In this document: piece after piece, positions 283-64,000 of the stretch
Layout: each line of letters begins with the position of its first letter
Numbering within the stretch: the first letter of the stretch is position 1
DNA from: Sipunculus nudus
Lineage: Eukaryota > Annelida > Sipuncula > Golfingiida > Sipunculidae
Direction of reading: 5' to 3'
Assembly (NCBI GenBank): GCA_026874595.1
Contig: CM049320.1
Coordinates: forward strand, 43,782,714-43,846,713
DNA: 64,000 nt
Program-made: the position numbers and the translations under genes
Notes under the pieces: model-generated
What the model saw: the letters and a program-made list of their open reading frames with translations, nothing else
Told to the model about the DNA's origin: nothing
Databases searched by the model: none

Positions 283-2105
283 AACAGGGACCCATGGGTC
301 ACGTCGCTCAGCTGAATTTTGAAATATTTTAGCAAATGCAAAATATACTTTTTTTTATAACAGTAAAACCTGTCTAATGCGGACTTTCAAGGGACTGACA
401 TATTTTGTCCTTAATAGCTAGGTGTCTATTACTTTCTTTTTTAAGGTCCAAGAATTCTGCTAAAAATCATTCAAGTAAACAGTTGAAAATAAGCTGTATC
501 CCACAACATTTGATATGTGACAGATTTTTGGGGATGCTAGCTCCTGCTGTTCCTGAGAAATTATGGGTTAATGTACTGATAACCAATGACATCTGTACAA
601 ATAAGGTTGAAGCAGGTGGAGCCACCAATACCTTAATTTCAGATATGACTCATGTGACCAACATTGGCATAAAACTTGGTGATGATAGCTCCAGCCGTTT
701 CTGAGATTGTAATTTTAGTAGGCCTTTTTGGACAGATGACTAAGTTCAACTTCCTGAAACTTGGCCAAAAATCACCAAACTTTCCAAAAATTCGAACAAA
801 CTTGAGATATATTGATTGAATATTGTTCCAGGAACCATTTCTCTTAAATATTGGACAAATTGGCTGAAAAGTATTGGAGAAGATTTTAAGGTTTTTTAGC
901 TTTTTCCCTATAAAACTGAAGTAAAAGCAGTTAGGCAAAAAATAAGCAAAATCCAAGTTTTTTGGATGATTAATTTTTTGCATAATTTGGTGATGCCAGC
1001 CCCAGCCGTTTTCGAGATAGTATGGGTTAACCCATCAGATGATGGATGATGCCACACCAACGCATCAGTTCACAGGTTTTTTAAAAAGTTTATTCATAAT
1101 AACGAAATATTTAAAAATAAACTGAAAGATATTCAAACAGAGCCAATCACTTTATTTCAAATTCTGCTGAGTCAGGAAAACAATGAACAATTTGTTCGCA
1201 TAAGATCACATAGTTTATCAAGTTTTAAATTTTATACATTTGCTATATAACATATATAACTGAATATATCAGTTGATTCACAATTCTAAACTGCATCAAC
1301 ATTTATGAATAATTTGGTCAGATAATATTACATTATGCACACAGATGTATTTAATTTTTTCCCACAAAAAAATTATAGATTTGCAAAAAAATAAATATAT
1401 GGAAATAAAAGTTTTATCAAATTATGCATACTGATTGGTTTAATTATATTTTAATTTCCTAAAATTAAATCAACAGTACTCACAAGAAAAACGTGCCATG
1501 TTCAAAGTTGGGAAAAATTTGAGGTAATGATGTTATTTTTATGCTAATAATTTTTTAAAATTTCAAAATTCAGATCTAATTTTGGGTATACAACTGAATC
1601 TTAATTAAACAAAGTTATATACTTGGAAAAAAAGTCTCTGGCTTCAAAAATTTTAATGTTAATTAAGCAAATATTTTTCCTAATTTTTAACAAAGTCCAA
1701 CATGTTCAACCCCATAACTTATAGAAATTACTCTTTAGAGTCTTAATTTCTGACATGAATATAGTAAATATATAGGAAAATACTACTGGTGATTATTAAA
1801 TTAAGAAATAAATTACGAAAAACAGACAAGTCCTTTTGATATTAGGCAGTCCTAAAGTGTGATAATAGGTTTTTAATGGAAATTTGAGGTTTTCCCTTAA
1901 TTTCTCGAAAGGAACGAAGTCGCAGTGACTCAGTTTTCAGTTTGGTTGGGGATCTTGGGGACATCTAACAGTATGCTGAATTTCGGATTCGTAGATCTAA
2001 CTGTTTCAAAACGTTCAAGTCTAACGGATGGACAGATGGACGGACGGACGATGGACAATGGACCACATCTATAGCTCAGATGACTTATAGTCAGCTGAGC
2101 TAAAA
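283..2105 (+). mobile_element. Family A element, copy A1 (Helentron-like non-autonomous)
   Basis: It begins with the palindrome GACCCATGGGTC (289-300), followed by GCTCAGCTGA (306-315). It ends with a GGACGGACG tract (about 2030-2060), the complementary TCAGCTGAGC (2091-2100) and TAAAAA. A piece of family C lies inside it (see 365-1085). No transposase or Rep/helicase ORF is visible, so it is non-autonomous. Read in reverse, the subterminal inverted repeat followed by a hairpin fits the plan known for Helentron-type elements; that class assignment is an inference. Confidence 0.7.
365..1085 (+). mobile_element. Family C fragment nested in A1
   Basis: This stretch matches the internal text of family C (compare 31610-32800). 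It shares the GGTGGAGCCACC variant of the module palindrome, the phrase GATGATAGCTCCAGC, and a right end with TTCACAGGTTTTTTAAAAA (about 1067-1085), which is a degraded form of the C terminus CACAGGTTCGCTAAAA. The left end is eroded. ORFs of about 100 codons here are chance openings in repeat sequence. Confidence 0.6.
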
Positions 2106-3834
2106 ATTCAATAAATAGCCTAATTTTTTATCTTTTATTTTCAAATTTGAGATTTTAACAGTTTGAATCCATATGTGTATATGCTGTGAATATTTAATCA
2201 AAAGGAAAAGAACGTGCCATGGCCAAAGTTGACCTAAATTTAAGGTACTGATTTATATTAATGCTAATCACTTAAAAAATTGTCAAAATTCAGATCTATT
2301 TTCAATATAAAATTGAATCTTGATGAAATTAAGTTATATCCCTGAAAAAGTCTCTAGCTTCAACATTTCTCATGTTAAGTGGCTATATATATTTCCTGAT
2401 TTTTTTCAAAGTGCATTATGTTTGGGCTCATAACTTCTAGAAATTAGGCAATACTGACCTAATATCTGATATGTATATATGAAACGTATAGAGGAAAATC
2501 TATATGTACTCTTTGCAGTTTGCATCGCCCCCAAAGCGCCAACAAGCGCAATGTTTCAAATGACCATGCCATGTTGTTATGACAATAACTCATATTAAAC
2601 ATCTATAAAAGATTGGTATCTATCTAAATTATTATCATTTTGTATTTAAAATGTGGATATTCCTCATTCCTAAAGACATTTTCTATGTTTATGGTGCCTG
2701 TTATGAAGGTAGAGCGATGTCACAAATTTTCAAGATGGAGGCCGTCCGACTTGCCTCATGGTTGACATCGTGCTTTGACAATTTTTAGAATATGTTTTGA
2801 AAAAAAAATACAAAAAAATGTTCATTAACGCTTAGTAACTAAAATTTGAGAATGTTTATTATGTCTTAAGATAAAAAAAAGAGTGAGACCGTTTTGACAC
2901 TGTATGACCAACATGCAATTCGATTTGGTTTGATACATATTTGATGAGTAAATCTGTGAATTTGCCTTCTTGTTACCTTTCTTTGAAGTTCACCTGGTCT
3001 TAATAAGTTTTTCATACCTCAGCAGGTAGGCTTTTGCAATTTTATCCTTATTTGAAATCAACATACTTCATGTCAAATATACAAGCATTATTCTTATAAA
3101 TTTCTTGGAACAAATCATATATATCCTATAATTACTTAAATAACCTTAATCATATTTTATAAACCTGTTTTACCTATATCTCTTCCATAACATTCACCAG
3201 GTACCGGCAGATGGTAATTCCCTTATTGATCCTACATTCTATGATGTCTTCACTGGGATTTACTGCAGACATTTCATGTACAAATATGATAAACATCAAA
3301 GACACTATACTCACCTTAATTCACCTGATATACCTGGTTCTATTTATAGACATATGTAAAATTTTTGATTTAGTCATTAACCTCTTGCTTGGTATCTCTG
3401 CATAACCTGTTTAAAATTTCATAAAGATCCAACAAAAATTGATCAGGTTATGAGTTATAACATTAATGTACAGTGTCAAAATTGTGAAAACCTAAAATAA
3501 CTCTGAACAGGAAGGGGGTGTTTTGTGACAACCTAATGTAAACAGGAAAGGGTTAAATATGATCAAAAACAGATCAGTAGTTTGATATAAGGCAGTCTTG
3601 AAATGTAACACAGGATTTATAATGGAAAATTTAGGTTTTTCCTTAATATCTCGAAGGAACAAAGTCCTAGTGACCCAATTTTCAGTATGGTAGGAGAGAC
3701 ATCTAACTGTACGCCAAATTTTGTTTTTGTAGGTCTAACGGTTAAAAAACATGCCTTGTAATGGACGGACGCCTGGATGACGGACACAGGACCTTGACTA
3801 TAGCTCAGATGACGTATTGTCAGCTGAGCTAAAT
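2106..3834 (+). mobile_element. Family A right-hand part (left end missing)
   Basis: Internal text of family A restarts immediately after the A1 terminus (AACGTGCCATGGCCAAAG near 2210; compare 19930). It runs to a second complete right end: a GGACGGACGCC tract (3762-3785), TCAGCTGAGC (3820-3829) and TAAAT. No palindromic left end precedes it. It is therefore either a truncated insertion or a tandem copy with duplicated right ends. The element stops a few bases from the duplicated splice-donor block of the kelch gene. Confidence 0.6.
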
Positions 3835-4007: not shown

Positions 4008-7000
4008 CTGCAAGTACAATAGCACTCTTATCTTATTTTTTCTTTCTGCCTGGCTAGTAGTGAAAGAATTATAATACTGAGAAAAAACAATCAAAGATCA
4101 TAGATTACCTCAACAATGGTCTGCTGGGGAAAATTTTGGCAGTAACAAGCACATTTATGACAATCATTGTTTTAAAAGATTATTTTTTGGTGGAGGTCAC
4201 TATCTCCATTTTTTAATGCTAACTTAACTAATTCTTAACCTAAGTAAACATATATCTGTAGAGTTCCATTTCCCACTAAATGACCAGGCCTGTAGCACCT
4301 GCTACCTGTCATTCAATGATATATCTTAATGTCACCCAGTCCCAGTGTCTACCACACCTGCAGGTCCTGGCTGTGTTATCATCTCCATTGCTTGGCTATA
4401 CCACTTTGGATTTATAAAAAAGGAGCCCCACACAGACACATTGATTTGTGAATGATACACCATCATGAGGCACAGGCAAACCATTAAGCCTGCAGAGGGG
4501 TCATCCGGGTAAAGGCTAAGTGTGAAATATCTGACTGCTCCTCCGGTGAGATCTGTACTCGTGATCTCCCTGCTTTGAGTCCTGTGTGCTATCTGTAAAC
4601 CACCCAAGCTGGTCATCTAAGAAATTGATTACTACCAGGAATTAATTAACATTTTTCACTCCTTTATGCTATGACAAGGTAGCTAATGTGTAACATTACA
4701 ATATGATAGTCCATTTGCCATCATTTGATTGGTAATCCAATAAACAAACAATACCTGATAATATATATTAGTGCATGTTTGTTATATTAACATAAATATC
4801 TGTGAAAGAATCAACAAAATGAATTTTTTTGTCATTACACAAGAACATTATAGGATTTAAAGATGTATACTGCATTGCAAACAATCAACAAGTGACCCAT
4901 AGGTCATGAAGCTGAGCTGACTGACATTTTGAAAATATGATCTTGCACAGACAACTAATAAAGATAGGTGGCATCATTGTTCATGCATATTAGCTTAAGT
5001 TCATCAAGACCCATAAGCACAACAAATTTGATGACAATCCAACCAGCCTGTGTATTTTGCTTTATTTCTGGGGTGCTCAAATTACCCCCCCCCCCAAAAA
5101 AAATATAGGTCACTGTGACCAAATTTCAGGTTTCTGAGGAGAACCTTTTAGGAACTCCCAGAATGTCAAGTTAGAAGATTCTGGGCCCCATGGTTATGAT
5201 TTGTGCCCTACTTTGGTATCAAATTTTCAATTATTCTGGGGGATACTTCTGAGCCCCATAGCACAGACAATATGGCTGACAGAGACCTTATTTCAGGTTT
5301 CCATGGAGACTTTTCATGGCAAGAAAATTTGATTTGTGCCCTGTTAATAGATGACCACATCTTTTAAGGTCTCAAAAATAGAAAAAAAACTTGATGTGTC
5401 GGAACGACACGAATGCCCCCGCCTGGGGCAAATTAGAAACGTTTGTTAAATTTTCAGGAGGTGTTGTATGGTCAAAAGTTGGTCAACAAGGGCAAAATGC
5501 AAACTCGATCTGTAACGGGTCATTATCAAGCAACACACCAAAAATCAGGCCAGTATCTGCAGGCATTGTGGAAAAAAGTCCATACATATGCATTTTCCAT
5601 AAAAATTTCTGCTTTCATGAAATTTTCTATGTTTAGAAGCCGTAAAACAATCAAAAATAGGTCAACTGGGACAAAACAAGAACTTGATCTGTAACTGGTC
5701 ATAATCTGCCTACACACCAAAAATCAGGCCAATATCTGCAGGCATTGCGAAAAAAATTACGTACATGTGTATTTGTCATGAAAATTTCTATTTTTCATGA
5801 AATTTTCTTAGTTTAGAAGCCGTTAAACAATCAAAAATAGGTCAACTGGGACAAAACAAGAACTTGATCTGTAACTGGTCATTATCTGCCCACACTAAAA
5901 ATCAGGCCAATATCTGCAGGCATTGCGAAAAAAAGTCTGTACATGTGTATTTGTCATGAAAATTTATATTTTTCATGAAATTTTCTATGTTCAGGAGCCG
6001 TAAAACGGTCAAAAGTAGGTCAACTGGGACGAAATGCGAACTTGATCTGTAACTGGTCATTATCTGCCCACACAAAAAATCAGGCCCATATCTGCAGGCA
6101 TTGCGAAAAAAAGTCTGTACAACTGTTTGATTACGGAATAACGGAGATGGGTAAAACTATATGCCCCGGCCACTTTGTGGCGGGGCATAAAAATAGTAAA
6201 AAATTGAAAAAAAATACAGATGGCGCCACCAGTCTGCAAAAACTGATGTAACACCCCATGATCAATATCCATACAAAGAATCATGGGGATCAATGCAGTA
6301 GTTGTTCAGATACTTGAGCTTTTGTATTAAATTTTTCATTATTCTGGGGGGGGGGGGGGGTACTTCGGAGCCCAATAGCTGGAAGAATATGGGTAACAGA
6401 GACCTAATTCAAGGTTTCCAAGAACCAAGACTTTCATGGACCTCTCTGAAGTGAGAAGATTCCAGGTCCAGCGGTTACGATTTATGCCCTGGAAACCGAT
6501 GACAGCATCTTTTGAGGTCTCAAAATAGAGAAAAATAATCGTAAAAAATCAAAAATAAAGATGGCACCACCAGTCTGCAGAAACTGATGTAACACTCCAT
6601 GATCAATATCCATGCAAAGAATCATGGTGATCAATGCATTAGTTGTTCAAATATTCGAGCTTTTTTGTATAAAATTATTCATTATTCTGGGGGGTACTTT
6701 GGAGCCCCATAGCTTGAAAAATATGGGTAACAGAGACCTAATTCCAGGTTTCTTAAAAGATTTTTCATGGTCCTCTCTGGATGTAACATGAGAAGGTTCC
6801 AGGTCCAGCGGTTACAATTTGTGCCCTGTGAACAGATGACGGCATCTTCTGAGGTCTCAAAATTAGAGAAAAAAAACGTAAAAAATAAAAAAAAATACAG
6901 GTGGTGCAACCAGTCTCCAGAAACTGATGAAATGCTCCATGATCAATATCCATGCAAAGAATCATGGTGATCAATGCATTAGTTGTTCAGATATTTGAGC

Positions 7001-8878
7001 TTTTGTATCAAATTTGTCATTATTCAGGGGGGGTATTTTGGAGCCCCATAGCTTGAAGAATATGGGTAACAGAGACCTAATTCCAGGTTTCCAAGGAGAT
7101 ATTTCATGGACCTCTCTGGATGTAAAGGTAGAAGATTCCAGGTCCAGTGGTTATGATTTGTGCCTTGTTTATGGACAAACGCCAAGGAGATATTTCATGG
7201 ACCTCTCTGGATGTAAAGTTAGAAGATTCCAGGTCCAGTGGTTACGATTTGTGCCTTGTTCTGGGTTTGACAAAGAGTGATAGCTATAGCTCAAATGACT
7301 TACGGTCAGCTGAGCTAAAAATGAGTGACAGTTCCTGGTTGGAATTTTCAGGCCCCATGGAGCTGTTATACCTGAAACTACATGCTGTGATGTTGAGAGT
7401 ATGATGGGTATTAATGAGCTTATTCCTGTAAAATCTCCACTTAAAACCGCACTTCCGATTTAAACCGCACCCAGACTTCGCCAAAATTCCAGGTGAGACA
7501 CCGCGAGGGGCTCAAATACTAAGAACCCCCCTTTAAAACCGCACCAACTTTCGCTACGGGATGATTTGACAAAGGACACAATAAAGCTATCATCTAGAAA
7601 TGAACAAGCGTAGGTTGCGACTCGGCCATTCCTGTCCACTTTAAAATTCCTTTGGCATTTTATTTAAACACATCATAACACTTTTTTGCAGGGTCACTCA
7701 AGCATGAAGTTTGGGAAGACATAAGGGCCTGTGAACCTCTGCCTGTTTATACAGATTTTATTCCGTGCCATATTCTTGTTTGCTACTGATTTGTCATTAT
7801 ATTTTAGAAAAAATATTCTGCTGATCCATTTCAAGTCACTGTATATTTTAATTCTAAAAGTAATATTTTGAAATCTTAATTTTTGATGAAAATTCCATTT
7901 TCTGGAATTACTCGGAAGATTCAAATCATTTTCATACCGGTTACTTCGGTATTATCATCGTCACATCGTACCTTGACATCACTCCATGTCACAATTTGCT
8001 GGTGCGTTTGAAAACATCGCTGGTCAACTTAACTAAATATCTAAATAACTGAAGTTACCTTGTCGAGATACGCACGTACAGGAAACTTGACGCTTGAAAT
8101 CGAGTGATTTAAGGTGAAATTAAAGTGGCCAGTCGGGGTAAGCAAGTTTGTTTTTTTCCCTGAAGAAAGTTTCCGTGTGGGGAGCCATTTTGTCAAAGCA
8201 GTGTTCCCGCAAGGCACGCTGGGACGAAATAGGTGGCTATTCTGTTTACCACCCACCGCGTACAGCCGTTCAAAATATTCTTAGCAGAATACCGGGGCGT
8301 TTCAGCACATGGCGGCACTCAAACTTGATTTTAAAATGATCGTCTGCCATTGTGTGACTCTTTACGATGTCAGCTTTTTATTCATTTTACGTTTTGACAA
8401 ATAATCATTGCTAAATAATGCCGCAAATGGGTTTAAAGTAAGCTTTTATTTCAATTTTGCTTGACCATGCCCAACGAAGTGGGCCGCTGTGTGTTACAGC
8501 AGGGATGTTGTAAACGTATTATTTGGTGACAGTTACCAAGATTTTATAACAAGTTATATATCACACGAAACTAATCAGCAATATTTAGTTTATAAATAAC
8601 AAATAATCGTAAATAATACATTTAAACATGGCTCCCATGCATGCGAGACTGCTGCTAAGAATGCCCTTCGAAAGTTGCAATATAATCGCCCACTCGCCGG
8701 CCCAAAAACGATGTCTATCAGGAAGATATTCAGGAAACCCTTCTAGTATAAATCGCACAGTGTTGTCAGGAAATCAACCCGATTTCAAGATTTTGAATTT
8801 CTTGATTAAACCGCGGTTTTAAGTGGAGATTTTTACAGTAATGCAGGATTTCCCAAGGGAAACTTATATAATCCACAG

Positions 8879-12100: not shown

Positions 12101-15100
12101 TTTGGCCAATAGACTTTGTGAGTAAATAACGGAGGCGCATATACACTCAACCAATGCTTACCGATGTACTCAAGCCCTGCGCGACTACCGGAATGAAGAT
12201 CAAAGCTATCCTTTAAAGCCTCACTGATCAAAGCTAAGCCAAGGACTACAAAGATCAGTGAGGCTGATTTCATCACACTTAAAATCTGTGGTCGGCTACT
12301 CAGTTATGGTCTGTTGTAACATTTTGTTTGTACAGGTTAATTTCCCGGCCTGGGCATTCTGATTAAAGCGAGGTCAACCCCAGCCGGTGTGACGGTGTTT
12401 TCGCACCTACTGCCTACACTCGGGTGCACTAATCAGTCAGCAATATGTATCACCCCTGAAGTGGCTACTTTAATTTAGAATCAATGAACCATTTTTATTT
12501 TGGATTATTTCTCATTGTTCAGATTTCAGATAAATGGTAAAAAGTTTAGGTTCTCCATTTTTATTTTGGATGAATGATTTTTTGGATAAATGGTGTTTTC
12601 GATGTTCTACTGTAATTAACAAACAGAACCCACCAATGTTCTAGATACAATATAATTAACAAACAGAACCCACCACTGTTCTAGATACGAGATAATTAAC
12701 AAACAGAACCCACCACTGTTCTAGATACAAGATAATTAACAAATAGAACCCACCACTGTTCTAGATACAAGATAATACAAGATAATTAACAAATAGAACC
12801 CACCACTGTTCTAGATACAAGATAATTAACAAACAGAACCCACCACTGTTCTAGATACAAGATAATTAACAACCACAACCCACCACTGTTCTAGATAATT
12901 AACAAGCAGAACAAGATCAATGCACCAGAATATAAGCCAATAAATACATATGGGCTAAATCAGTAAACCTCAAACGTCTGTCACTTGTTATATAAAATAT
13001 AGTAATATACCTATATCCAGCTGCCATATGGAATCTTTGCTGTATGTTTGTCTCTCTCCTTGGCCGCCTTGACCTCCGATCACGATAGCCTTAAACTCAT
13101 CCAGAAGACACATGCTGTGGCCCCATCTGGCACTTGGTCCTGGCCCTAAATGATTAATTCACATGACCATGATTAGACATATCAAGAAATAAGCTGACCT
13201 GTGGAACAGACCTGGTCCATGTTCCCGTCTCTCATAGAAGTATAGCTACAAAAAAGGTTTGAATAACTGTGGGAAATTCAACAGGCACTATTAACAATGG
13301 ACCCATGGGTTACAGTGTTCAGCCGAAATTGACCTTGCAGTTAAAAATCTAAAATAATATCAAACAGAGATAAAGTCTGATAAGAAGAGGTAATATAGGC
13401 TATAGTTGGCTGATAAGATTAAAGAAAATGTTGCAAATAACATTTTGTGATCTGACTATGTGTTTCTGACTAGAGTTGAAACTGAAGCATGTAAGTACTT
13501 TGTGAATACTATTAACATGATCATTGGTTGGCTTTTTGATAAGCTGTTGCCAGTTCAGCAGTTCACACATTTGTCCAATTAGATCCTATATTTTTTTATT
13601 TTACCAAAATTTTTTTTTTCTATTTTATTAAATAAACAATTGCAATAAAGTTCCCATTCCACAGGAGGAAGGACTTGATGGTTGGTGGATGGGACAATGA
13701 TGGGAGTTATGCAGTTGCAATAAACTACTGTAGACTCAGATAATATTGTGGGCTTAAAATTTTGTGGTTTTTGTACAACACGCAAATTGTGGGGTATTTG
13801 AATGAATGAATGGAAACAATGAAAACTTTGGAAAATCATGGTTATTAATATCTCCATATGTGCAAGGACGATACATCAACACAAAAACCTACACTTGATG
13901 GAAGGAAAAATGTAATGAGACAATACACATGAAGGTTTCTAATGTAATGAGACAATACACATGAAGGTTTCTAATGTAATGAGACAATACACATGAAGGT
14001 TTCTAATGTAATGAGACAATACACATGAAGGTTTGCAACTTTTTTTAATCATGGCGGTACCAGGTAGTCACATGGGGATGGGGTGGTAACACAAGAGACA
14101 AGGTTAGTTTTGCATTCAGTGTGTCAACTATTGGGAGATTAAAAATTAGAAACTGGCTTGATGGGTGGACCAGACAGGAATTTTAACTCATCTCATATTA
14201 GAGGGGCATAATTTGGATATTAGTAATATTCTGTAACACTCACTTGCGCTTACATTTATCCACAACTATTATATTGGCAATATATGATAGTACTGACTGT
14301 TATATAAATGGCTCACTTTAACCACACTCTACAGTGGGCAATATTTGGAAGAAGTGCTCTTTACATTAGCATCCCGAGGTAATGAAACAATGCCTACAGG
14401 CCTAATGCGAACCTGTGCAGTGATTTATACACCAGGTATAATGCTTCAATGCTGGGCCATAACTTTTCAAGAAGGCTTACTGGTACGCCTTGTATACCAC
14501 GAAGGCATCAGAGGTGTATACATATTTCCAAATTCCGGCTGATATCCCCTTTTGAGAAATAAGTAGGGACATACACTGTTAAAAAAATTATTGTGGGTGG
14601 CACCACCAGTCTTGTATACAACTATTAAAGCTTTACAATATGTATAAATATGCCCAATTTCAAGATGATATATCAAATAACTCCGGAGAAATAAGCAGGC
14701 ACATACACTGTGCAAAAGTCATTGAAGGTGGCGACACCTATCTTGTGAACGAGAAAGCCACAAAAAAGCATAGACAGGTCAAAATATTTTGTCAATACAT
14801 CAAACTTCTCTTGAGTTTAATGCACTGGGCTGACCAGGCTAAGGTAAGAAAGGCAGTTGCCCGAAGTGAACTGTGACAAAATGCTGGCTCAAGGTACTGC
14901 ACTGAGTGAACTCTTGACCTGCATCTAGCTAGGCAGAGTGAACTTTTGACCTGTACTTGGCTGCACTGAGTGAACTTGTGACCTGTTGCATAATCTGACA
15001 CAATTGGCAGTTTGCCAAAGCTATAAATAGATCGAGACTGACCTTAGTTGCCAAATCTGATACAGTGGGCAGCCTGCCAAAGCTATAAATAGAATGCAGC

Positions 15101-18100
15101 TACTGAGTGAACTCTTGACCTATACCTGGCTGCACTGGGTGATCTCTTGACCTGTTGTCTAATCTGATACAGTTGCCAGTCTGCCAAAGCTATAAATAGA
15201 GCCAGGCTGACCTCTGGCATGTTGCCAAATCTGAAATAGTCGGCAGTCTGCCAAGCTATTTAACTTGTAATCTAAATGTCCAGTGGCATGATGTAACAGA
15301 TGCTGATTAACTGGTGCCAGGCTAGATGTAACTGATTCACACAGCTAACAACTATGGTAAAATGACTCTATTCAATCTCAATAATTCAGCCAAAAATCAT
15401 TCATGTGGAACCATTAAAGACAATTATTATAAGAATTATTCTTGTAAAATATTAAACAGATTGGCTTCAGTGGTGTCAGTCATAAAACATTATGCAGGTT
15501 TATAACTCATATACGAAGATACAGCAAACTGGCTGAGTTCAGCTTGCTGTAACTTAGCCAAAAAGCACTGAAAATAAAACCATTTGAACAAACTTGAATT
15601 ATCAACATCAGAGGATAATTAATGTGTGAGATTTAATAATTTGGCCCAGTGGTTTCTGAGAAGATTTTTTGTTTTAGCCACTGAGCTAAAATGGACAGTT
15701 ATGGCTTATGACTAAATTCAGCTTCCCATAACTCAGCCAAAAGTCAATAAACAGAGACCATTTGAACAAATTTCAGAAAGCACTACCCTAGGATTGTTTT
15801 TGTGCCATATTAAAAAATTTGGCCATATGGTTTCAGAGAAAAAATTCTTTGTACCCTCAGTATGATACAGGCACTGATCCCCCCGTACAAAAAGGCCGAT
15901 TCAGGTGGCGCCACCAATACTTCAATTTCAGATATGACTCATGTGGCCAACACTAGCATAAAACTTGGTGATAATAGCTCCAGGAGTTTCTGAGATCAAA
16001 ATTAATATTATTTAAGTATGCTTTTTTGGACAGATGACAAAGTTCAAATTCCTGTAACTCAGCCAAAAATCACTGAACGGGAACCATTCGAACAAACTTG
16101 AGAGAGCTTGTTTCTGGGATTATTTTTCTAAAATATTGGACAATTTGGCTTGATGGTTTTGGAGAAAAAGATTTTTAAAGGTTTTTAAGCTTTTTCCCTA
16201 TAAAATCTCAGCCAAAAAATAAACAAAATCGGATAGAGTTTTTTAGATGACTGATTTTTTGGATTAAGTTTGGTGATGCTAGCTCTTGCCATTTTCAAGA
16301 TAGTATGGGTTATCGCACAGACAAGGCACGACGCAATGATGGACGACACAACACCATCGCATAAGTTCACAGGTTGGCTAAAAATGAGTTTACATGGCAC
16401 TTGTTTTTTAAGCCAATAGAGAGCCTAAGTTTAATTTAATCTCTATGGAAAGAAGATAGAAAAGACCGGTTCCAAAAACAGCCGTGCCTCGGTAACTGTG
16501 GTCACAAACATGGGAACCTATCCTGTTCTTGTCATGTAAAAACTACCGCTTTGCGCGATAAAAATGTGGTATTGTTCATGAATATTTCACCTGAAATGTT
16601 GAAGAGGATATTTCGGGATATGTTTTCAGTTGAAAAAATTTTGATATTGTTTTATTGTAAACATTTTGGAGGGCCATGTTTGTGCGATAATTGGGGAAAT
16701 AATGGAATTGACAACAGAATATTTTTAATAAAGTATTTTTTTTAAAGTAATTTACAGGAAAAGAAATTCAGTACCTTTATTATATGCATCAATGGCAATC
16801 ATAATATTGTATTAAACAATGTTTGTAACTTTAATCAAAATTCAGGCAGTGATTAAAACTACATATATAGATGAAGTCAGCCACCAGCTGATGTCAAGAA
16901 ATTTTCTGACCATGTCATTCTTTTATCGTTGGAATTGTGAATATGTGGATTACCTTGATCCATATAAACCACGAAAATAAATTATAAATTGCATATTTAT
17001 ATATCCATAAATGATAATCTGTCTCAATTATATTCAAATTATGCATACTGATGGGCTTAATTATATTTTAATTTGTTAAAATTATTTAAAAGGAAACTAG
17101 GTCTGGTCAGACAATGGTCCTCAGAGGACCCTGCATTTCTGGTAGTGCTGGACTAGTTTATATATGGGTAAAAAGTTTAGTTTATAGTTTAAAAATATGA
17201 CAAACCAAAACAGGTTTTTATCAATATGCATGAAGGAAAAAAAATTGTACTGGTTCAAATAAAATTAAAGAAGTGTTTGAAATAATGAATGCAATACAAA
17301 ATCACCTTCTGTACTCTGGCGCCCACATGAATACTATTATTACCATGTGAATACTACTATTATTATCATGTTAATACTATCATATTCATGTGAGCATGGA
17401 TATTATACCAGCCATGGACCGTGTCCTTCCCATTGCCTGCACTCAACTGACAAAATGGATGACTGTTCTGCTCTGAGCACAGACTCAGATCAGATCACAA
17501 TAGCTTTGCCTTTTCAAAAATTTAAAAGACAAATCTGTTTGGACAATGTATATATGCTCTTTAAAATGTGGAATTTCAAATGGTAAAATGTTATGCACCC
17601 ATAGCACTCAGAAGGCAAAATGGAAGGCCTGACTGAAGTTTACTATTTCAGTCTTTTGATATCACTTGTCTGAGGACGTGATGCCTGAACAAAAGTAGGG
17701 TGAAACAAATAACATGAGGTAATAATTTGTATAACCATACTTGTTACCTGTTCCTAAAGCTTTGACAGAAGACATGGTTGCTGTTACACTTGTGGCTGGA
17801 GTGTTTTCTTTTGCCGTAACTGGAGCTGTTACTTCAATTTTCTCTTTGGCTTCTTCTTTGGCTGTTTCCTCCTTCAGTACACTTGGAGATGACGTGTTCA
17901 GCATGTCTTTAAGGGTGCGTGCTCTTGTAGGGGGTTTTCGCTTGCGGCCACTGTTTCCGTCTGGTGTTCGCTCTGTGCCCATGCGGGCCCTCTTGGTGCC
18001 TCTTTTTGATGCCTTGACATCAGTTGTGGGTGTGGTCATCCCAGGCTAAATACAACAAATACATTTCACAGACAATCAAGCTGTCTTTACATTGTGACCC

Positions 18101-18609
18101 AGTTAAAGGTCCCCAAAAGATTTCCTAAGGAACTTGAATAGTTGTTTCTAGACTAAATGGTCATCATGCATGCCCCTATTAACAGGGTAACCTGACAAAC
18201 TGACAGCTGGATGATGGACAAAGGACCATCACTGACTGATAGTCATCTGAGCTAAATATACCAGGCTAAAAGGTACCTGGGCAGTATCTACAGGCATCAA
18301 CAGGTATGTGATTTTACACAGATAAACTACTTAATACAAGAAACCTGACCAGCATCATTTTAAGGTAAGTGTGGCATATCTACCAATTGCTAGTACCATT
18401 GTACCAACAACTGCACAAGGTCATTCTCATCTGCTTGGACAATAAAACAAGAAGCAAGGATCCTTTTTCACAATATAAAAAGAAGAAATAAACAACCAAT
18501 AACACAACGGCTCAGAGAAGTAACAACACACCCAGTAATTTACCTCAGATGGCGTCCCTTTGGTTGCATCCTTTGTAGGTGTTTGTAGCGTCTTCATAAT
18601 TACCACCCC
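3916..18609 (-). CDS. Kelch-repeat beta-propeller protein gene (six exons seen, 3' part outside the window)
   Basis: Exons on the minus strand are 18544-18609 (ATG at 18597), 17748-18045, 13011-13145, 11428-11615, 10434-10630 and 3916-4007. Every junction has AG/GT borders and the phases (0, 1, 1, 0, 2) agree, giving about 321 codons without a stop. Residues 1-117 are low-complexity, rich in Lys, Arg, Thr and Pro, with basic clusters ([15 protein letters not shown]) that could act in nuclear or polyanion binding. From about residue 118, kelch signatures repeat: [49 protein letters not shown] and LVMFGGW, with regularly placed aromatic residues. Kelch blades form beta-propellers that bind proteins. 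About five blades are seen, and the rest should lie left of position 1. I cannot name the orthologue; Rab9-effector-like or HCF-like kelch proteins are comparable in blade style only. The introns hold satellites and A, B and C elements. Confidence 0.88.
4330..4617 (-). repeat. Decayed tRNA-derived SINE-like repeat
   Basis: Read on the minus strand, the left part looks like a decayed tRNA head. GGGTGGTTTACAGATAGCAC stands near the box A position, and AGATCACGAGTACAGATCTC about 30 nt on near the box B position. A non-tRNA body follows. A 94-codon ORF spans it, but it has no protein-like features. Both promoter boxes have drifted from consensus, so the call rests on layout. Confidence 0.45.
4889..7319 (+). 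mobile_element. Family A element, copy A3, with a nested B element
   Basis: The left end is CAAGTGACCCATAGGTCA (palindrome with one mismatch) followed by GCTGAGCTGA. The right end is TCAGCTGAGC (7306-7315) plus TAAAA. Inside are three or four modules of about 330 bp. Each carries GATGGCGCCACC or a variant, CATGATCAATATCCATGC, a G-run (CTGGGGGG), and GTTACGATTTGTGCCCTG. A family-B element occupies 5385-6193. Near the right end a block of about 75 bp (7085-7175) is duplicated at 7180-7255. Confidence 0.75.
5385..6193 (+). mobile_element. Family B element, copy B1, inside A3
   Basis: The left end is the hairpin GTGTCGGAACGACAC (5-bp stem, 5-nt loop), followed by GAATGCCCCCGCC. The right end is ACGGAGATGGGTAAAAC, the hairpin TGCCCCGGCCACTTTGTGG and its CGGGGCA arm, then TAAAAA (6154-6193). 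The body is about three copies of the roughly 180-bp B module. The A module has an uninterrupted A-rich stretch at this point in its other copies, so those copies serve as empty sites. Confidence 0.75.
7426..8838. mobile_element. 1.4-kb element with 25-bp terminal inverted repeats
   Basis: The left end, CTGTAAAATCTCCACTTAAA plus ACCGC (7426-7450), is matched by the right end read in reverse, CTGTAAAAATCTCCACTTAA plus AACCGC (8813-8838); they differ by one A. AAACCGCAC or close variants recur at about 7446, 7463 and 7535, as expected of subterminal transposase-binding repeats. No transposase is found; the 63-64-codon ORFs inside resemble nothing known to me. It looks like a non-autonomous DNA transposon. 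I see no clear target-site duplication, so the superfamily is open. Confidence 0.65.
8879..8962. repeat. (TA)n microsatellite
   Basis: Almost pure AT dinucleotide over about 84 bp, with two G or C interruptions. It directly abuts a tRNA-like unit. The IYIYIY reading frames across it are artefacts. Confidence 0.95.
8963..9097 (-). repeat. tRNA-like unit with inverted ends between two (TA)n arrays
   Basis: On the minus strand, TAGCAAAGCGG (9040-9050) fits the RNA polymerase III box A, and GGGTTCGAACCC (8997-9008) fits box B; they are about 32 nt apart. The ends GTAACGGG (8963-8970) and CCGGTTAC (9090-9097) are near-complementary. This is probably a short tRNA-derived mobile unit, not a functional tRNA: there is no clean acceptor stem or anticodon arm. 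Confidence 0.6.
9103..9170. repeat. (TA)n microsatellite
   Basis: Pure TA over about 68 bp on the other side of the tRNA-like unit, preceded by a short CA run. Confidence 0.95.
9240..9390 (-). repeat. SINE-like repeat, copy 1
   Basis: On the minus strand it reads GGCTCTCTCAGCTGGTACCC, then GGGTTGATTCCAAGCATGGC, then GTGGGTTGTTGTAGCCCGTC. The same order of blocks is found at 50430-50575. The first part has box-B-like text (GGTTGATTCC). The two copies define a dispersed, probably tRNA-derived SINE. Confidence 0.55.
9391..10433. other. Intron 5 sequence, no gene seen
   Basis: AT-rich single-copy-looking sequence between the SINE copy and kelch exon 5. I see no ORF with coding character, no RNA gene and no tandem repeat. 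Confidence 0.5.
10434..10630 (-). CDS. Kelch gene exon 5
   Basis: The acceptor is TTGCTTTCAG|GCAGAAG and the donor GCTCAGG|GTAAGT. It encodes 65 codons plus two bases. The blade reads [20 protein letters not shown] with the double glycine next. It continues with a Pro/Cys-rich loop ([16 protein letters not shown]), a tryptophan strand (EGWYSPI) and the PRSG that opens the next blade. Phase 0 in and phase 2 out match exons 4 and 6. Confidence 0.88.
10727..10978. repeat. 84-bp minisatellite, three copies
   Basis: Three near-identical units start at 10727, 10811 and 10895 (period exactly 84), each beginning CAGTTATACACGTCCTAG. They lie in the kelch intron between exons 4 and 5. The 61-codon plus-strand ORF across them simply reads the repeat. 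Confidence 0.92.
11428..11615 (-). CDS. Kelch gene exon 4
   Basis: The acceptor is TTCATTTTAG|AGACAAG and the donor GTTGTTCAG|GTCAGG. Its 62 codons, plus the two bases completing the Glu codon split with exon 3, contain [12 protein letters not shown] (the W strand of one blade), then [32 protein letters not shown] and EWKWQVVQ. That is one complete kelch blade and the borders of its neighbours. Confidence 0.88.
12162..12273 (-). CDS. Candidate signal-peptide exon nested in a kelch intron
   Basis: From ATG at 12273 the minus strand reads [20 protein letters not shown], a short basic start followed by a hydrophobic core and small residues. This looks like a secretory signal peptide. It continues for 17 polar residues to a strong donor, TACATCG|GTAAGC. 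The following exon is not identified. A perfect 13-bp inverted repeat (AGCCTCACTGATC) lies within the coding part. It could be the first exon of a small secreted protein on the same strand as the kelch gene, or a chance ORF. The sequence upstream (12300-12460) is richer in C and G than its surroundings. Confidence 0.35.
12613..12905. repeat. 40-bp minisatellite, about seven copies
   Basis: Units begin TAATTAACAAACAGAACCC with period 40 (12613, 12653 and so on). One unit carries an extra partial duplication (ATACAAGATAATACAAG, about 12765-12785). It is intronic in the kelch gene. Confidence 0.92.
13011..13145 (-). CDS. Kelch gene exon 3
   Basis: The acceptor is CATTTAG|GGCCAGG and the donor GGATATAG|GTATAT. 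It encodes [24 protein letters not shown] and KDSIWQLDI, the first recognisable kelch blade, ending one base into a Glu codon. Phases in and out match exons 2 and 4. Confidence 0.88.
13295..13420 (+). repeat. Family A left-end fragment
   Basis: ACAATGGACCCATGGGTTAC and GTTCAGCCGA are a degraded copy of the family A left palindrome and subterminal motif. No right end follows before unrelated sequence begins. Confidence 0.5.
13909..14036. repeat. 32-bp minisatellite, four copies
   Basis: Period 32, each unit containing GTAATGAGACAATACACATG. The last unit is degraded at its end. It lies in the kelch intron between exons 2 and 3. Confidence 0.92.
14390..16383 (+). mobile_element. Family C element, copy C1
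   Basis: The left end has GCCTACAGGCCT followed by GCGAACCTGTG (14407-14417). The right end has a GACGACAC-type tract, CACAGGTTGGC (16368-16378, one mismatch to the complement) and TAAAAAT. Inside are a perfect GGTGGCGCCACC (about 15906) and repeated text such as AACTCAGCCAAAAATCACTG. The 14840-15250 part is a looser repeat of phrases like GAGTGAACTCTTGACCTG. There is no protein-coding gene. Confidence 0.7.
16384..17747. other. Kelch intron 2, no further gene seen
   Basis: AT-rich sequence with no convincing exon. A short perfect hairpin, GGTCCTCAGAGGACC, stands at about 17115-17129 and could mark another repeat family. The plus-strand ORFs at 16551 and 17347 lack splice sites and protein-like composition. 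Confidence 0.5.
17748..18045 (-). CDS. Kelch gene exon 2 (disordered basic region)
   Basis: The acceptor is TGTATTTAG|CCTGGG and the donor GGAACAG|GTAACA. Its 99 codons plus one base encode a low-complexity region. It contains [25 protein letters not shown], then [13 protein letters not shown] and an acidic/lysine stretch [15 protein letters not shown], ending in a Thr/Ala/Val-rich linker. It joins in phase 0 to exon 1 and in phase 1 to exon 3. The composition suggests an unstructured tail, possibly nuclear. An opposing plus-strand ORF is its shadow. Confidence 0.8.
18544..18609 (-). CDS. Kelch gene exon with the start codon
   Basis: ATG at 18597 begins [18 protein letters not shown], followed by the donor CATCTGAG|GTAAAT in phase 0. 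Upstream, TTTTTATCGGCAG|GGGG is a good acceptor, so this exon probably carries 12 nt of 5' leader and an earlier non-coding exon exists. The exon edge and its intron are the source of the 122-bp satellite at 20504-23113. Confidence 0.7.
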
Positions 18610-28531: not shown

Positions 28532-28532
<1 letters not shown>

Positions 28533-28572
<40 letters not shown>

Positions 28573-28882: not shown

Positions 28883-28901
28883 TATATATATATATATATT
28901 A

Positions 28902-46000: not shown

Positions 46001-48680
46001 CAAACATGGTTACAGGTGGCGCCACCATTTTTTGTGTATGTTATAAAGCTATCCAAGGGCTACATTTGTATAAATTTTATTTCCTGATCGGTCAAACGGT
46101 TCCTGAGATATGAGCTTGGATGTAATCAGCGTGAACGTGAATGTAGATGGCGCCACCTGTCATAAAATCAAGAAAGCTATCCAGGATGTATACGCATACC
46201 GAATTTCAGGTGAATTAGTCAATTCACTGCAGAGATATGAGTAATTTTAACCCAAGGCAGATGAACAGATGGACACTGTGCAAACATGGTTACAGGTGGC
46301 GCCACCATTTTTTGTGTATGTTATGAAGCTATCCAAGGGCTACATTTGTATAAATTTTATTTCCTGACAGGTCAAACGGTTCCTGAGATATGAGCTTGGA
46401 TGTCTGCAGCGTGAACGTGAATATAGGTGGCGCCATCTATCATAAAATCAAGAAAGCTATCCAGGATGTATAAGCATGCGGAATTTCAGGTGAATTGGTC
46501 AATTCACTGCAGAGATATGAGTGATTTTAACGCAAGGCAGATGAACAGATGGACACTGTGCAAACAGGGTTACAGGTGGCGCCACCATTTTTGTATATGT
46601 TATAAAGCTATCCAAGGGCTACATTTGTATAAATTTTATTTCCTGATCGGTCAAACGGTTCCTGAGATATGAGGGTTTATGTGATGAAACAGACGCACAA
46701 ATGGACACTGGGCATACAGGAAAGGTCAGAGGTCAACGCAAATTGGTTAGGCACCAGTTCACAATTGACCCATTAATTGGTGTAAGTTTCAGAAAAATTG
46801 TGTTGTAGTTAATGAGATACTGCAGTTTTTGTATTAAATTTTCCATTATTCTGGGGGGGTATTTTGGGGTCATACAGCTTAAAGAATATGGGTAACAGAG
46901 ACGTTATTTCAGGATTCCATGGAGACAAAGGTCTCAAAAATAGAGAAAAAATTTGTAAAAAAAACCGAACAAATACAGGTGGCACCACCAGTCTGCAGAA
47001 ACTGATGAAACACTCCATGATCAATGCGTATGCCAAAAATCATGACCATCATTGATGTAGTCAATGAAATATTGAAGTTTTTGTAAGGAACTTTTGACTA
47101 TTCTGGGGGGTACTTTGGGGCCCCATAGCTTGAAGGATATGGGTAACAGAGACCTAATTTCTGGTTTCCATGGAGACTTTTCATAGGTCTCTCTGTGTGT
47201 TGAAAATGAAGATTCTAGGTCCAGTCGTTATGATTTGTGCCACGCTAACAGATGACAGCATCCTTAAATGTCTCAAAAAATAGGGGAAAAAATGGTAAAA
47301 AAAAATTGAACAATGTAGGTGGCGCCACCAGTCTACAGGAACTGATGGAACATCTCATGATCAATATGTATGCCAAAAATCATGACCATCAGTGATGTAG
47401 TTATTGAGATATTGAAGTTTTTGTATGAAATTTTTTACTATTCTTTGGGGTACTTTGGGGCCCCATAGCTCAAAGGATATGGGTAACAGAGACCTAATTT
47501 CTCGTTTCCCTGGAGACTTTTCATGGACCTCTCAGTGTGTCAAGAACTAAGATTCTAGGTCCAGTCTTTACGATTTGTGCCTTGTTAACAGATGTTCACA
47601 TTTTTAAAAGTCTCAAAATAGAGAAAAAAATTCGTAAAAAAATCGAAAAATACAGGTGGCGCCACCAGTCTGCAGGAACTGATGGAACATCTCAGGTTCA
47701 AGATGAATGCCAAAAAATCATGACCATCAGTCAAGTAGTTAATGAGATATTGAAGTTTTTGTATGAAATTTTTGACTTTTCTGTGGGGTATTTGTGGCCC
47801 CATAGCTTGAAGGATATGGGTAACAGAGACCTAATTTCTGGTTTCCATGGAGACTTTTCATAGTTCTCTCAGTGTGTCAAGAATGAAGATTTTAGGTCCA
47901 GTCGTTACTATTTGTGCAAAGTTAACAGATGACAGCATCCTTAAAGGTCTAAAAAATAGAGGAAAAAATCGTAAAAAATCGAACAATATAGGTGGCGCCA
48001 CCAGTCTGCAGAAACTGATGGAATATGTATCAATATGTATGCCAAAAATCATGACCATCAGTAATGTAGTTATTGAGATATTGAAGTTTTTTTATGAAAT
48101 TTTTGACTATTCTGGGGGGGTACTTTGGGGCCCCATAGCTCGAAGGATATGGGTAAAAGAGACCTAATTTCTGGTTTCCAAGGAGATTTTTCATGGACCT
48201 CTCAGTGTGTCAAGTATTAAGATTCTAGGTCCAGTCTTTACGATTTGTGCCTTGTTAACAGATGTTCACATTTTTAAAAGTCTCAAAGATAGAGAAAAAA
48301 ATTCGTAAAAAATAAAAAAATACAGGTGGTGCCACCAGTCTGCAGGAAGTGATGGAACATCTCATTATCAATATGTATGCCAAAATTCATGACCATCAGT
48401 CAAGTAGTTAATGAGATATTGAAGTTTTTGTATGAAATTTTTTACTTTTCTGGGGGGTACTTTGGGGCCCCATAGCCCGAAGGATATGGGTAACAGAGAC
48501 CTAATTTCTGGTTTCCAAGGAGATTTTTCATGGACCTCTCAGAATCCCAAGTTACAAGGTTCTAAATCCAGTGGTTACGATTTGTGCCCTGTTAACGGAC
48601 AGACGGCCAGACGGCCGGATGGACGACGGACAAAGAGTGATCGCTATAGCTCAGATGACTTACAGTCAGCTGAGCTAAAA
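43014..48680 (+). mobile_element. Family A element, copy A5 (5.7 kb, with E-module array)
   Basis: The left end is AACAAGTGACCCATGGGTCA (perfect palindrome 43021-43034) then GCTCAGCTGA (43039-43048). The right end is GACGGCCGGATGGACGACGG, TCAGCTGAGC (48666-48675) and TAAAAA. The inner 43200-46760 part is a long array of E modules and 46780-48590 holds five A-type modules. It splits a LINE ORF at the residues EKHF, so it is a young insertion relative to the LINE. Confidence 0.82.
43200..46760 (+). repeat. E-module array, about 280-bp dimers opening with GGTGGCGCCACC
   Basis: Two diverged half-modules alternate. One is GGTGGCGCCACC, TGTCATAAAATCAAGAAAGC, GTGATTTTAACCCAAGGCAG and a GATGAACAGATGGACACTG tail. 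The other is GGTGGCGCCACC, ATTTTTTGTGTATGT, GGCTACATTTGTATAAATT and GTTCCTGAGATATGAGCTTG. The dimer spacing is 280-282 bp (43626, 43908, 44189; 44749, 45029). About a dozen dimers are present. The short ORFs are repeat readings. Confidence 0.88.
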
Positions 48681-59920: not shown

Positions 59921-60960
59921 GAACAAGGGACCCATGGGTCACGTCGCTCAGCTGAATTTTGGAAAAATATTAACAACTGCAAAATATTTTTATTTCTGGT
60001 TTTTATTTTTGGTTTTTCAAGTAAATAAGCATTTGAAAAGCTTAAAGAAAATGGCCCTGCTAAAATGAAACTCTGTAAATTACAGAATAAGGGTCATGAG
60101 CTCAAGCATATGCACTGTGTAATAAATGAAACCTGTGGCCTGAAACCATTTAATGATGCACCAAGGGAAAAAAAGGGCCTACAGTAAGTGTTATATAAAA
60201 GTTACATTTCATAAACAAATAACGTGTAAAGGAAATTTAATTTTAAAAAGTTAAACATATGGCCATATGAGTTAAAAATCAATCCAACAAAGCTTGACCA
60301 ATATTCCTGATTTTAAAACTAAGTGTAACAGTGTTATTCACACCTAGGCCCAGCCAACTTTAAGAGATATGAATGAAATGCTACCAAGTATTTATATCTT
60401 CTTAAATCTAGTCAGTTAGCACTTACATTAGATCCTAATATTTTATCACATATTAATATAAGGGTTAAATTTCTGAACATTTTTTCTTTAAAAAAATCAA
60501 AATTGTCCAAGTCTCAACAAAAAGAATTAATTTAACATTAAAATTATAAGATTTGTCTTGTTTATTTGTCTTTTGTATTGAAGGGGTAAATGGGGGAGGG
60601 GTCGCTGTTGTTACTGCTTGCTACTGAAGAAAATGTGAAATTATAAGAATTATAAGATTCATCTTATTTATAGTACAGGTCTGTCAACAGAATGGGGGGG
60701 GGGGGGGGGAGAGAAAGGCTCCCTGTGGTATTTACTGCAGACAGCCTGATCAAGCTCAACAAGAGAGAGGGCTTGCCCCAGTGATGGGATTACATAACAA
60801 GACCCTTTCGGAGCATAGAGAGCTGCACTGAATGACCTACAGTGACCAAAGTGGACTGCTTAACAATGTAAGGGAATACATCAAGAGCCTTCAAAAAAAA
60901 TTCAATGACTAGCCTAATTTTGCAGCTTTTATTTTCAAATTTCAGATTTTAACAGAATAA
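59921..60960 (+). mobile_element. Family A left part, copy A6
   Basis: GAACAAGGGACCCATGGGTC, ACGTC and GCTCAGCTGA form an intact left end, identical over its core to A1. D-type text (TGGCCTGAAACCATTTAATG) follows at 60128-60150, then A-type text. No right end is present before A7 begins at 61013. Confidence 0.6.
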
Positions 60961-61012
60961 TTCCTTATGTGTACATGCTGTAAAAATAAAATCCTGAGTA
61001 CTTACAGGAAAA

Positions 61013-62002
61013 AACAAGGGACCCATGGGTCACGGCGCTCAGCCGAAGTTTGAAAATTTTTTGCAAATGCAAAATATGCAAAATATTCTATGTAATGTTT
61101 TTCATTTATATAAGCATATGAGAAGCTAAGAGGAAAGGGGCCCTCCTTCTTTGTTAAAGTAAAGTTCTAAATATATGATTGCAAACTAATACTCTGACAA
61201 GACTGTCATGAAGAAAAACAGTAACAGTTTTGAGATACTATGATGCAAATGAAAAATTTACAGATGGACAGGCAAGTGGACAGAACTGACTACCTTTATT
61301 TCACTTTCAAGAGAATAATGCATTTAAGTTTATATATAAGCCTATTTTTTTAGCATATCCACTTTTTCCATTAATAGTTTTTATCTGATTCATTTTTTTT
61401 ATTTACAAGTTTTATTAATTTGTAATAAAAAAATTGAAAATATAAGTTAAAATATTAGAATTCTAAGTTGCAATCATTATATATCCAGAGTGTAGCTCAT
61501 ATTAGGACATATTATGCATACACATATATTTTATTATTTTTAAATCACAAATGTTTAAACTGAATTTAAAAGAAAATAATGCCACAACATGGCATCTACA
61601 AGATTATTCCTTGAGTCACTATCAAAAAGTTTTGCAAATTGGAGTTTTCAGTACATGCTTAATTTATTCACTGAATTTAAATAAAAGATTCAGTAAATTT
61701 GATAAAATAAATCATCTTTTCAAATAAAGTATACAAACTCTTGGTTGAATGAGGGACAAACAATATTATTGTGCTAATTACTATCTCAGCTATAATTTAT
61801 TACTGGAATTAATAGTCAATTTCACACCTGGTGAAGTTTTTACTTTTCTAAAGTAAGGAATTACTTATTTGATGAACATCCACACTTTCATACCAATACA
61901 CCACTTTGTGGACACAATTCAATGTGCTCTTTAATCATTGTAACCCTGGTGGTACAATACAAAATCTAAAATGTAGCATAGCCAAGAATAAAATAAAATA
62001 CA
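61013..62002 (+). mobile_element. Family A element, copy A7, cut by B3
   Basis: The left end is AACAAGGGACCCATGGGTCA (perfect palindrome), then GCTCAGCCGA. It follows A2 (18741-19690) closely for about 950 bp, including ACAACATGGCATCT and AAGATTATTCCTTGA. At 62003 family B begins where A2 continues uninterrupted. Confidence 0.7.
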
Positions 62003-64000
62003 GACTAGATGTGTCGGAACGACACGAATGCCCCCGCCTGGTGCAAATTAGAAACATTTGTAAAATTTTGAAAAATTTTTTAAGTTCAGGAGGTGTCGTA
62101 TGGTCAAAAGTAGGTCAACAAGGGCAAAATGCAAACTCCATCTGTAACGGGTCATTATCAAGCAACACACCAAAAATCATGCCAGTATATGCAGGCATTG
62201 TGAAAAAAAGTCCATAAATGTGCATTTTCCATAAAAATTTCTGTCTTTCATGAAATTTTCTATGTTTAGGAGCCGTAAAACAATCAAAAGTAGGTCAACC
62301 GGGACGGAAAGCGAACTCGATCTGTAACTGTCATTATCTGCCCACACATAGAAAATCAGGGTGGTATCTGCAGGCAATTAGGAGAAAAAGTCAGTACATA
62401 TGCATTTGTTATGAAAATGTCTATTTTTCATGAAACTTTCTATGTTCAGGAGCAGTCAAATGGTCAAAAGTAGGTCAACTGGGACAAAACAAGAACTCGA
62501 TCTGTAACTGGTCATTATCTGCCTAAACACCAAAAATCAGGCCCGTATCTGCAGGCACTGCGAAAAAAAGTCCATACATGTGCACTTTTTTATGAAATTT
62601 TCTATGTTAGAGCACCGTCAAACGGTCAAAAGTAGGTCAACTGGGACAAAACGTGAACTCTATCTGTAACTGGTCATTATCTGCCCACACATCAAAAATC
62701 AGGCCAATATCTGCAGGTATTGCGAAGAAAAGTCTGTACAAGTGTATTTGTCATGAAAATTTATATTTTACATGACATTTTCTATGTTCAGGAGCCGTTA
62801 AACAGTCAAAAGTAGGTCAACTGGGACGAAACACAACTCGATCTGTAACTGGTCAATATCTGCCCACACACCAAAAATCAGGCCAATATCTGCAGGCACT
62901 GCGAAAAAAAGTCCGTACATGTGTATTTGTCTTGAAATTTCATATTTTTCATGAAATTTTCTATGTTCAGGAGCCGTAAAACGGTCAAAAGTAGGTCAAC
63001 TGGGACGAAACACAAACTCCATCTGTAACTGGTCTATATCTGCCCACACACCAAAAATCAGGCCAACATCTGCAGGCATTGCGAAAAAAGTCCATACATG
63101 TGTATTTGTCATGAAAATTTCTATTTTTCATGAAATTTTCTAAGTTTAGGAGCCGTAAAACGGTCAAAAGTAGGTCAACCGGGACGAAACTTGAACTCGA
63201 TCTGTAACTGGTCTATATCTGCCCACACACCAAAAATCAGGCCAATATCTGCAGGCATTGCGAAAAAAAGTCCGTACATGTGTATCTGTCATGAATATTT
63301 CTATTTTTCATGAAATTTTCTAAGTTAAGGAGGCGTAAAACGTTCAAAAGGAGGTCAACCAGGACGAAACGCGAACTCGATCTGTAACTAGTCATTATCT
63401 GCCCACACACTAAAAATCAGGCCAATATCTGCAGGCATTGCGAAAAAAAGTCTGTACATGTGTATTCGTCATGAAAATTTTTATTTTTCATGAAATTTTC
63501 TAAGTTTAGGAGGTGTAAAACGGTCAAAATTAGGTTAACCGGGACGAAACGCGAACTCGATCTGTAACTTGTCTATATCTGCCCACACACCAAAAATCAG
63601 GCCAATATCTGCAGGCATTGCGAAAAAAAGTCTGTACATGTGTATTTGTCATGAAAATTTCTATTTTTCATGAAATTTTCTAAGTTTAGGAGCCGTAAAA
63701 CGGTCAAAAGAAGGTCAACTGGGACGAAACGCGAACTCGATCTGTAACTGGTCATTATCTGCCCACACACCAAAAATTAGGCCAATATCTGCAGGCATTG
63801 CGAAAAAAAGTCCGTACATGTGTATCTGTCATGAATATTTCTATTTTTCATGAAATTTTCTAAGTTAAGGAGGCGTAAAACGTTCAAAAGTAGGTCAACC
63901 AGGACGAAACGCGAACTCCATCTGTAACTAGTCATTATCTGCCCACACACCAAAAATCAGGCCAATATCTGCAGGCATTGCGAAAAAAAGTCTGTACATG
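62003..64000 (+). mobile_element. Family B element, copy B3, running off the window
   Basis: The left end is CTAGATGTGTCGGAACGACAC-type hairpin (GTGTC-GGAAC-GACAC, 62011-62025), then GAATGCCCCCGCC. At least ten 180-bp modules follow, each with CCGTAAAACGG and GAAAATTTC...GAAATTTTC hairpins. The right end is beyond 64000. ORFs here are repeat readings. Confidence 0.82.

Follow-up and report, generated by a model that had tools for sequence, protein, structure and literature searches.

To which class of mobile element do three families belong that share one terminal plan but not their terminal sequence? The question is raised by a 64,000-nucleotide stretch of the Sipunculus nudus genome (GCA_026874595.1, contig CM049320.1, positions 43,782,714 to 43,846,713; hereafter the window, to which all positions refer), in which families A, B and C recur. 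The original prediction had read them, in reverse orientation, as Helentron-like non-autonomous elements, and this was supported at the level of class; the support does not extend to the suggested co-mobilisation, no autonomous partner having been seen in the window. In reverse orientation, A, B and C are very probably non-autonomous elements of the Helentron type (HINEs). The assignment is based on subterminal inverted repeats (subTIRs), a 3' hairpin, a T-rich T|T target, insertions that need no target duplication and the lack of a visible transposon domain, as compared with published descriptions of HINE/DINE-1 and of the oyster Cg_HINEs. The three were filed as new families of this known kind; they are set apart by description and may be identical to families already named in this species.

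Terminal structure of families A, B and C

Left (hairpin) ends numbered eight for A, three for B and three for C, one C copy being inverted; the element strand is the minus strand for A, B and two of the three C copies. Read on the element strand, the general plan is a T-run, a 5' subTIR of 10-11 nt, often a GTCC-like stretch, mostly a tandem-repeat core, a 3' subTIR, a small hairpin, a short tail and the target T. Family A, which divides into subfamilies A1 and A2, starts with TTTTTA and GCTCAGCTGA, followed by a complementary inverted repeat (IR; 11-nt arms, 5 nt apart) and often by the GTCC-like stretch, and closes with TCAGCTGAGC, 4 nt, TGACCCATGGGTCA and CTTG|TT (CTTG in 6/8). Family B keeps this order with ATGCCCCCGCC, its IR following after 6-7 nt and its 3' tail being CTAG in two copies and CAAG in the third. 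Family C carries the subTIR GCGAACCTGTG, has a CTTG tail in one of three copies and lacks an IR. All originally reported motifs were present and stand, but the plan was amended: copies are nested, A comprises two subfamilies and C has no 5' IR.

Hairpins of A were located at 288, 4893, 13299, 18747, 35370, 43021, 59928 and 61019. A ninth match with up to 3 mismatches (24976) was dropped, as it has neither CAAG nor a subterminal repeat. The B hairpin is exact at 5396 and 62011 and has one mismatch at 41306; that of C is exact at 30703 and has one mismatch at 14391 and, on the minus strand, at 29707. Among 13 right ends, TAAAA (AAAAA in B) adjoins the 5' subTIR in 11 and TAAAT in two.

The predicted pairing of left and right 10-11-mers was confirmed, with 0-1 mismatch in 10 of 11 pairings, within the length of about 10-15 bp expected of HINE subTIRs; A at 13317/18243 is the exception with 3 mismatches. 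These pairings represent 9 distinct left ends, two of which were each paired with two right ends. The B subTIR at 5413, whose right repeat is one base short, is reported apart. Not taken as right ends were 24151 and 48831 (1 mismatch, considered on that match alone), 35390 (within a left end) and 29681 (which belongs to the left end of the inverted C copy). The word AACAAG, said to precede the hairpin in A and C, is present, but only CAAG belongs to the element and AA to the target, because the host repeat halts directly before CAAG at 18742/18743.

Motif-free scan and folding

The A hairpin by itself is weak: its 9 matches at up to 3 mismatches compare with a shuffle mean of 2.72, and 1/100 shuffles reaches 9. 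Hairpin matches alone were therefore discarded as proof, and the complete plan was scanned instead (a hairpin, a 10-mer and its reverse complement directly before TAAAA/AAAA). No motif was supplied; the rules were fixed after the families had been seen. The scan gave 8 pairs, starting from 6 left sites that belong to 5 elements, every one A, B or C, and none on the opposite strand of the window. One pair (306 with 7315) spans two elements. Five of the 14 left ends were recovered, the remainder having mismatches or no intact far end. Dinucleotide shuffles (n = 20) were empty in 18 cases; one gave 1 site on the plus strand and one gave 1 on the minus strand.

A second hairpin had been overlooked at first. 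The 5' repeat of A and B is followed by its complement, which corresponds to the IR of DINE-1 and oyster HINEs and matches at 9-10 of 11 positions at 7/8 A ends and 2/2 B ends. Folded as single-stranded DNA (one to two copies per family), 5' ends formed this hairpin with z-scores of -3.92 and -2.31 in A and -4.45 in B; C formed none (z +1.64). For 3' ends, values were -0.31 (43017) and -2.32 in A, -2.19 in B and -0.25 in C. The 3' hairpin lies outside the 3' subTIR, as in HINEs, and its stability is modest.

Insertion sites

Filled and empty sites, whose comparison had been proposed as a check, were compared at three nested insertions. In each, interruption of the host repeat coincides with the element tail and falls at AA or in A-runs, which correspond to T|T on the element strand. 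The junctions can be explained without a target duplication, although a few bases stay ambiguous owing to the A-runs and the 62005 site has its right side outside the window.

For the A1 element within a 122-bp tandem array, the left flank (18584-18742) was aligned with monomers lying between 20587 and 23057; 20/20 alignments end at 18742, directly before CAAG. The array continues from 20501. Most monomers without an insertion have CCGATAAAATATAACTC, and the insertion is flanked by CCATAAA and (T)AAAAATAACTC. For B at 5390 in an A2 array, alignments end at 5388-5392; once joined, its flanks were aligned with five A2 stretches that lack an insertion, and the join fell in an A-run every time. 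B at 62005 breaks an A1 copy, whose similarity to 18740-19692 ends at 62004, before CTAG. The A1 counterpart has TACAGAAAAT, as compared with TACAGA|CTAG at the filled site.

Across the 14 3' junctions, placed by hand at the CAAG/CTAG-like word, AA lies just outside the element in 13, while AA makes up 11.8% of window dinucleotides. This is the T-rich/TT target of HINEs. Element cores contain many A/T-runs, so that the elements insert into one another.

Coding content and searches

Within 50 of the 56 open reading frames (ORFs; stop to stop, at least 90 aa), Pfam revealed no Rep/helicase, transposase or reverse transcriptase domain, in line with HINEs having no coding capacity; the remaining 6 fall within an AT microsatellite or a minisatellite. 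Scans were reported to E 0.01 (one) or 0.1 (rest). No hidden autonomous copy was seen in the window, Kelch repeats being the only matches above the curated Pfam cut-off in the scanned ORFs. Seven matches below the cut-off were read as chance: PriA zinc ribbon (0.062), colipase (0.088), Bowman-Birk (0.014), LAP1_C (0.074), Baculo_VP1054 (0.049), YnfU (0.036) and HPS3_C (0.015). Rfam gave 0 matches at the gathering threshold on the window.

The exact A-end pattern had 0 matches in viral_contigs, and the exact B-end pattern had 0 in viral_contigs and genome_contigs; these are not collections of animal genomes, so the zeros say little. A full-text literature search with six end and box motifs returned, judged from the listing, nothing on animal transposable elements and one match on prophage integration sites.

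Class assignment and alternatives

Under the HINE reading, a Rep/helicase supplied in trans would nick at the 5' T-run, a single strand would be peeled off by rolling-circle replication, the 3' hairpin and terminus would serve as stop, and the copy would be joined between two Ts; this scheme follows what is established for Helitrons and Helentrons.

Several observations weigh against the HINE reading. The GTCC-like stretch, clear in most A copies and in B at 42810, was judged by eye; it is weak in C, and none precedes the A end at 7306. Tails are not uniform, CAAG being missing from two copies of A (284, 13295) and two of C (14388, 29710), and the exact 5' boundary is ambiguous inside the A-run. 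At one of the B junctions the outer dinucleotide is GA instead of AA, and the CTAG tail of B is reminiscent of canonical Helitrons and of the proto-Helentron of Phytophthora infestans. The IR at the A end at 18252 matches in only 7 of 11 positions, and C lacks it at 3/3 ends checked (best 5 of 11). All 3' hairpins are short, and two of the four that were folded, those of A at 43017 and of C, were no stabler than shuffles. No Helentron protein was seen within the window.

Short inverted repeats close to both ends, with no transposon domain in sight, would also be expected of elements resembling miniature inverted-repeat transposable elements (MITEs) and moved by a cut-and-paste DDE transposase. 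However, the repeats are subterminal, and just one of them has a hairpin on its outer side; the junctions can be explained with no target duplication, and TAAAA is found at the 5' end even where the left flank has no terminal TAAA (e.g. 4889/7316), which makes a MITE origin very improbable. Canonical Helitrons, defined by A/T insertion, 5' TC and 3' CTRR, are just as improbable as the MITE reading. In two of three B copies a hairpin stands a few bases before a terminal CTAG, and this is the only CTRR-like end in the three families; CTTG terminates most A copies, TT (element strand) lies outside the 3' end in 13/14 junctions, and a T|T-like target and 5' T-run are common to all three families. 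Moreover, subTIRs and a 5' IR are not among the Helitron features listed in the sections of Thomas et al. (2014, PMC4067079) drawn on here. Least probable of all are dispersed satellite arrays with flanks alike only through recombination. Tandem arrays do make up much of A2 and B, with monomers related between copies, but the ends are defined and lie in unrelated flanks, and insertion was clean both into the 122-bp array and into another family.

Comparison with described HINEs

As presented in the sections of Vojvoda Zeljko et al. (2020, PMC7492417) consulted, the Cg_HINEs of Crassostrea gigas consist of a 5' subTIR, a complementary IR, microsatellites (GTCY/GTCC/GTCK in several), central repeats, a 3' subTIR and a palindrome. 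They prefer TT and have no target-site duplication, and for some families no module is related to those of the others. According to the same sections, none of 10 autonomous elements could be related to Cg_HINEs, which leaves bivalve HINEs without a published partner. The present families resemble them in the 5' subTIR with complementary IR (A, B), the GTCC-like stretch judged by eye in most copies, the tandem core, 3' subTIR and palindrome, the T-rich target with no need of a duplication, the use of one plan by sequence-unrelated families and the lack of an identified partner. The two arrays of the A2 copy at 43017-48680 recall two Cg_HINEs described there. In contrast, A2 monomers measure 280 and 337 bp as against 138-181 bp in 13 oyster clusters, B (about 180 bp) falling within that range, and C has no IR; the likeness is stated for architecture. 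Among bivalve elements, Pearl, DTC84 and MgE are characterised in the same source as HINE-like or similar in architecture, and short arrays of about 160-bp central repeats occur in Pearl; their likeness to A, B and C is likewise one of described architecture.

DINE-1 and mite HINEs share a similar plan, with terminal Ts that vary in number, as far as described in the portions of Thomas et al. (PMC4067079) used. An IR next to the 5' subTIR marks the DINE-1 and Cg_HINE type and is absent from mite HINEs. Shared with DINE-1 and mite HINE-Mo are subTIRs, an IR near the 5' subTIR (DINE-1; here in A and B), a 3' stem-loop, a TT target and boundary Ts. The A subTIR has a palindromic core, TCAGCTGA, and mite HINE subTIRs are given as palindromic too. 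The distance to the 3' terminus is shorter than stated for mite HINEs, both from the hairpin (about 3-6 bases vs about 8-35) and from the 3' subTIR (about 19-23 vs about 38-60).

Three HINE families are added, one without a 5' IR, and the picture from oysters and flies is unchanged. Nesting of unrelated families in each other's A/T-runs provides filled and empty sites within one locus, and the ends of A, B and C can be used as search keys for the partner of bivalve HINEs.

Organisation of the elements

The mapped elements (Table 1) occupy 32,780 of 64,000 bases. This share is substantial, as predicted, but amounts to about half of the window and not to roughly a third; it uses hand-set outer bounds and counts nested and spacer sequence, and some far ends were set by similarity or not found.

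Table 1. Positions of HINE copies and fragments in the window.
Feature	Position	Strand	Remarks
A1 HINE	284..2105	-	3' hairpin 288-301, 3' subTIR 306-315, 5' subTIR 2091-2100
C fragment, 3'-truncated	about 486-1087		inside A1 284..2105
Second A1 5' half, tandem with first	2106..3834	-	5' subTIR 3820-3829; no own hairpin found
A2 HINE with ~337-bp array, split by B	4889..7320	-
B HINE within A2 array	5390..6193	-	hairpin 5396-5410, 5' IR 6161-6171, subTIR 6179-6188; filled/empty site in A-run
Degenerate A1 HINE, C nested inside (probable)	13295..18257	-	hairpin 13299, 5' end 18243-18252; 3 subTIR mismatches; end pairing less sure than others
C HINE	14388..16383	-	hairpin 14391, subTIRs 14407-14417 and 16368-16378
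A1 HINE in 122-bp tandem array (18584-18742, 20501-23113)	18743..20504	-	best filled/empty site
C HINE, inverted	27007..29710	+	hairpin 29696-29707; far end not found, low limit by similarity only
C HINE with two 5' ends	30700..34560	-	5' ends 33195-33205 and 34545-34555
A2 HINE with two 5' ends	35366..37606	-	5' ends 36543-36552 and 37592-37601
B HINE, ~180-bp array	41300..42843	-	hairpin 41306, IR 42810-42820, subTIR 42828-42838
A2 HINE, two arrays	43017..48680	-	280-bp unit 43438-46673, 337-bp unit 46927-48596
A1 HINE	59924..60993	-	5' end not found; high limit by similarity only
A1 HINE split by B	61015..62004	-	similarity to 18740-19692 ends at 62004
B HINE, continues past window	62005..64000	-	hairpin 62011-62025, array 62073-64000

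B is nested within A2 and within A1, and a 3'-truncated C within A1. A further C is probably nested in the degenerate A1, whose two ends pair poorly. Two 5' ends with a single hairpin occur at 35366-37606 and 30700-34560, and 284-3834 is similar. Nested insertion of the same family, followed by unequal recombination between like halves, would be the simplest account.

Thirteen of the 14 hairpin ends have the same orientation, the sole inverted one being the C copy at 29707. This bias was set aside as a biological signal, since nested copies take the strand of the target runs and a single locus is concerned. The 280-bp unit of A2 recurs alone and inverted at 51286-52538 (minus strand), without recognisable ends. 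The 280-bp array (43197-46763; 51286-52538, minus strand) was considered as a fourth family and rejected, no hairpin or subterminal repeats being visible by eye at its limits.

Shared palindromic box

The 12-bp palindrome GGTGGCGCCACC has 41 sites in the window at up to 1 mismatch, while shuffles predict 0.05; these sites do not count as independent, many lying within tandem arrays. By position, A2 has 28 (in both the 280- and the 337-bp arrays) and C has 9; a single site falls in the C fragment that lies within A1, 2 fall in the minus-strand 280-bp array, 1 outside the mapped elements (40692) and 0 in B; examples are 36573, 43626, 47318 and 15904. Its flanks differ between arrays and the monomers are mostly dissimilar, but C and the 280-bp array have 70-100 bp in common at 72-78%. 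Because of this stretch, common descent would be the simplest reading of the sequences. It is rather unlikely that the box is a functional site common to families with unrelated ends (for instance for array amplification by replication or recombination), with cores and ends as exchangeable modules and one machine moving all.

Surrounding sequence

The window is A+T-rich (GC 0.307-0.445 per 2-kb step) and abundant in tandem repeats (55 rows, some overlapping). The 122-bp array split by A1 extends over 18584-23113, outside the HINE families, with 21.5 copies and 95% matches at 20500-23113. A minisatellite at 56368-57823 consists of 44 copies of 34-bp units (74% matches); GC skew is strong there (0.335 over 56001-58000), and several minus-strand frames are open. 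A host gene is represented by exons with Kelch repeats at 10430-11637 (~10.4-11.6 kb, minus strand). The exon at 11308-11637 matches Pfam PF24681 (E 3.9e-15), and in phmmer searches the Kelch exons matched muskelin best (8.3e-11), with LZTR1 and KLHDC2 among further matches.

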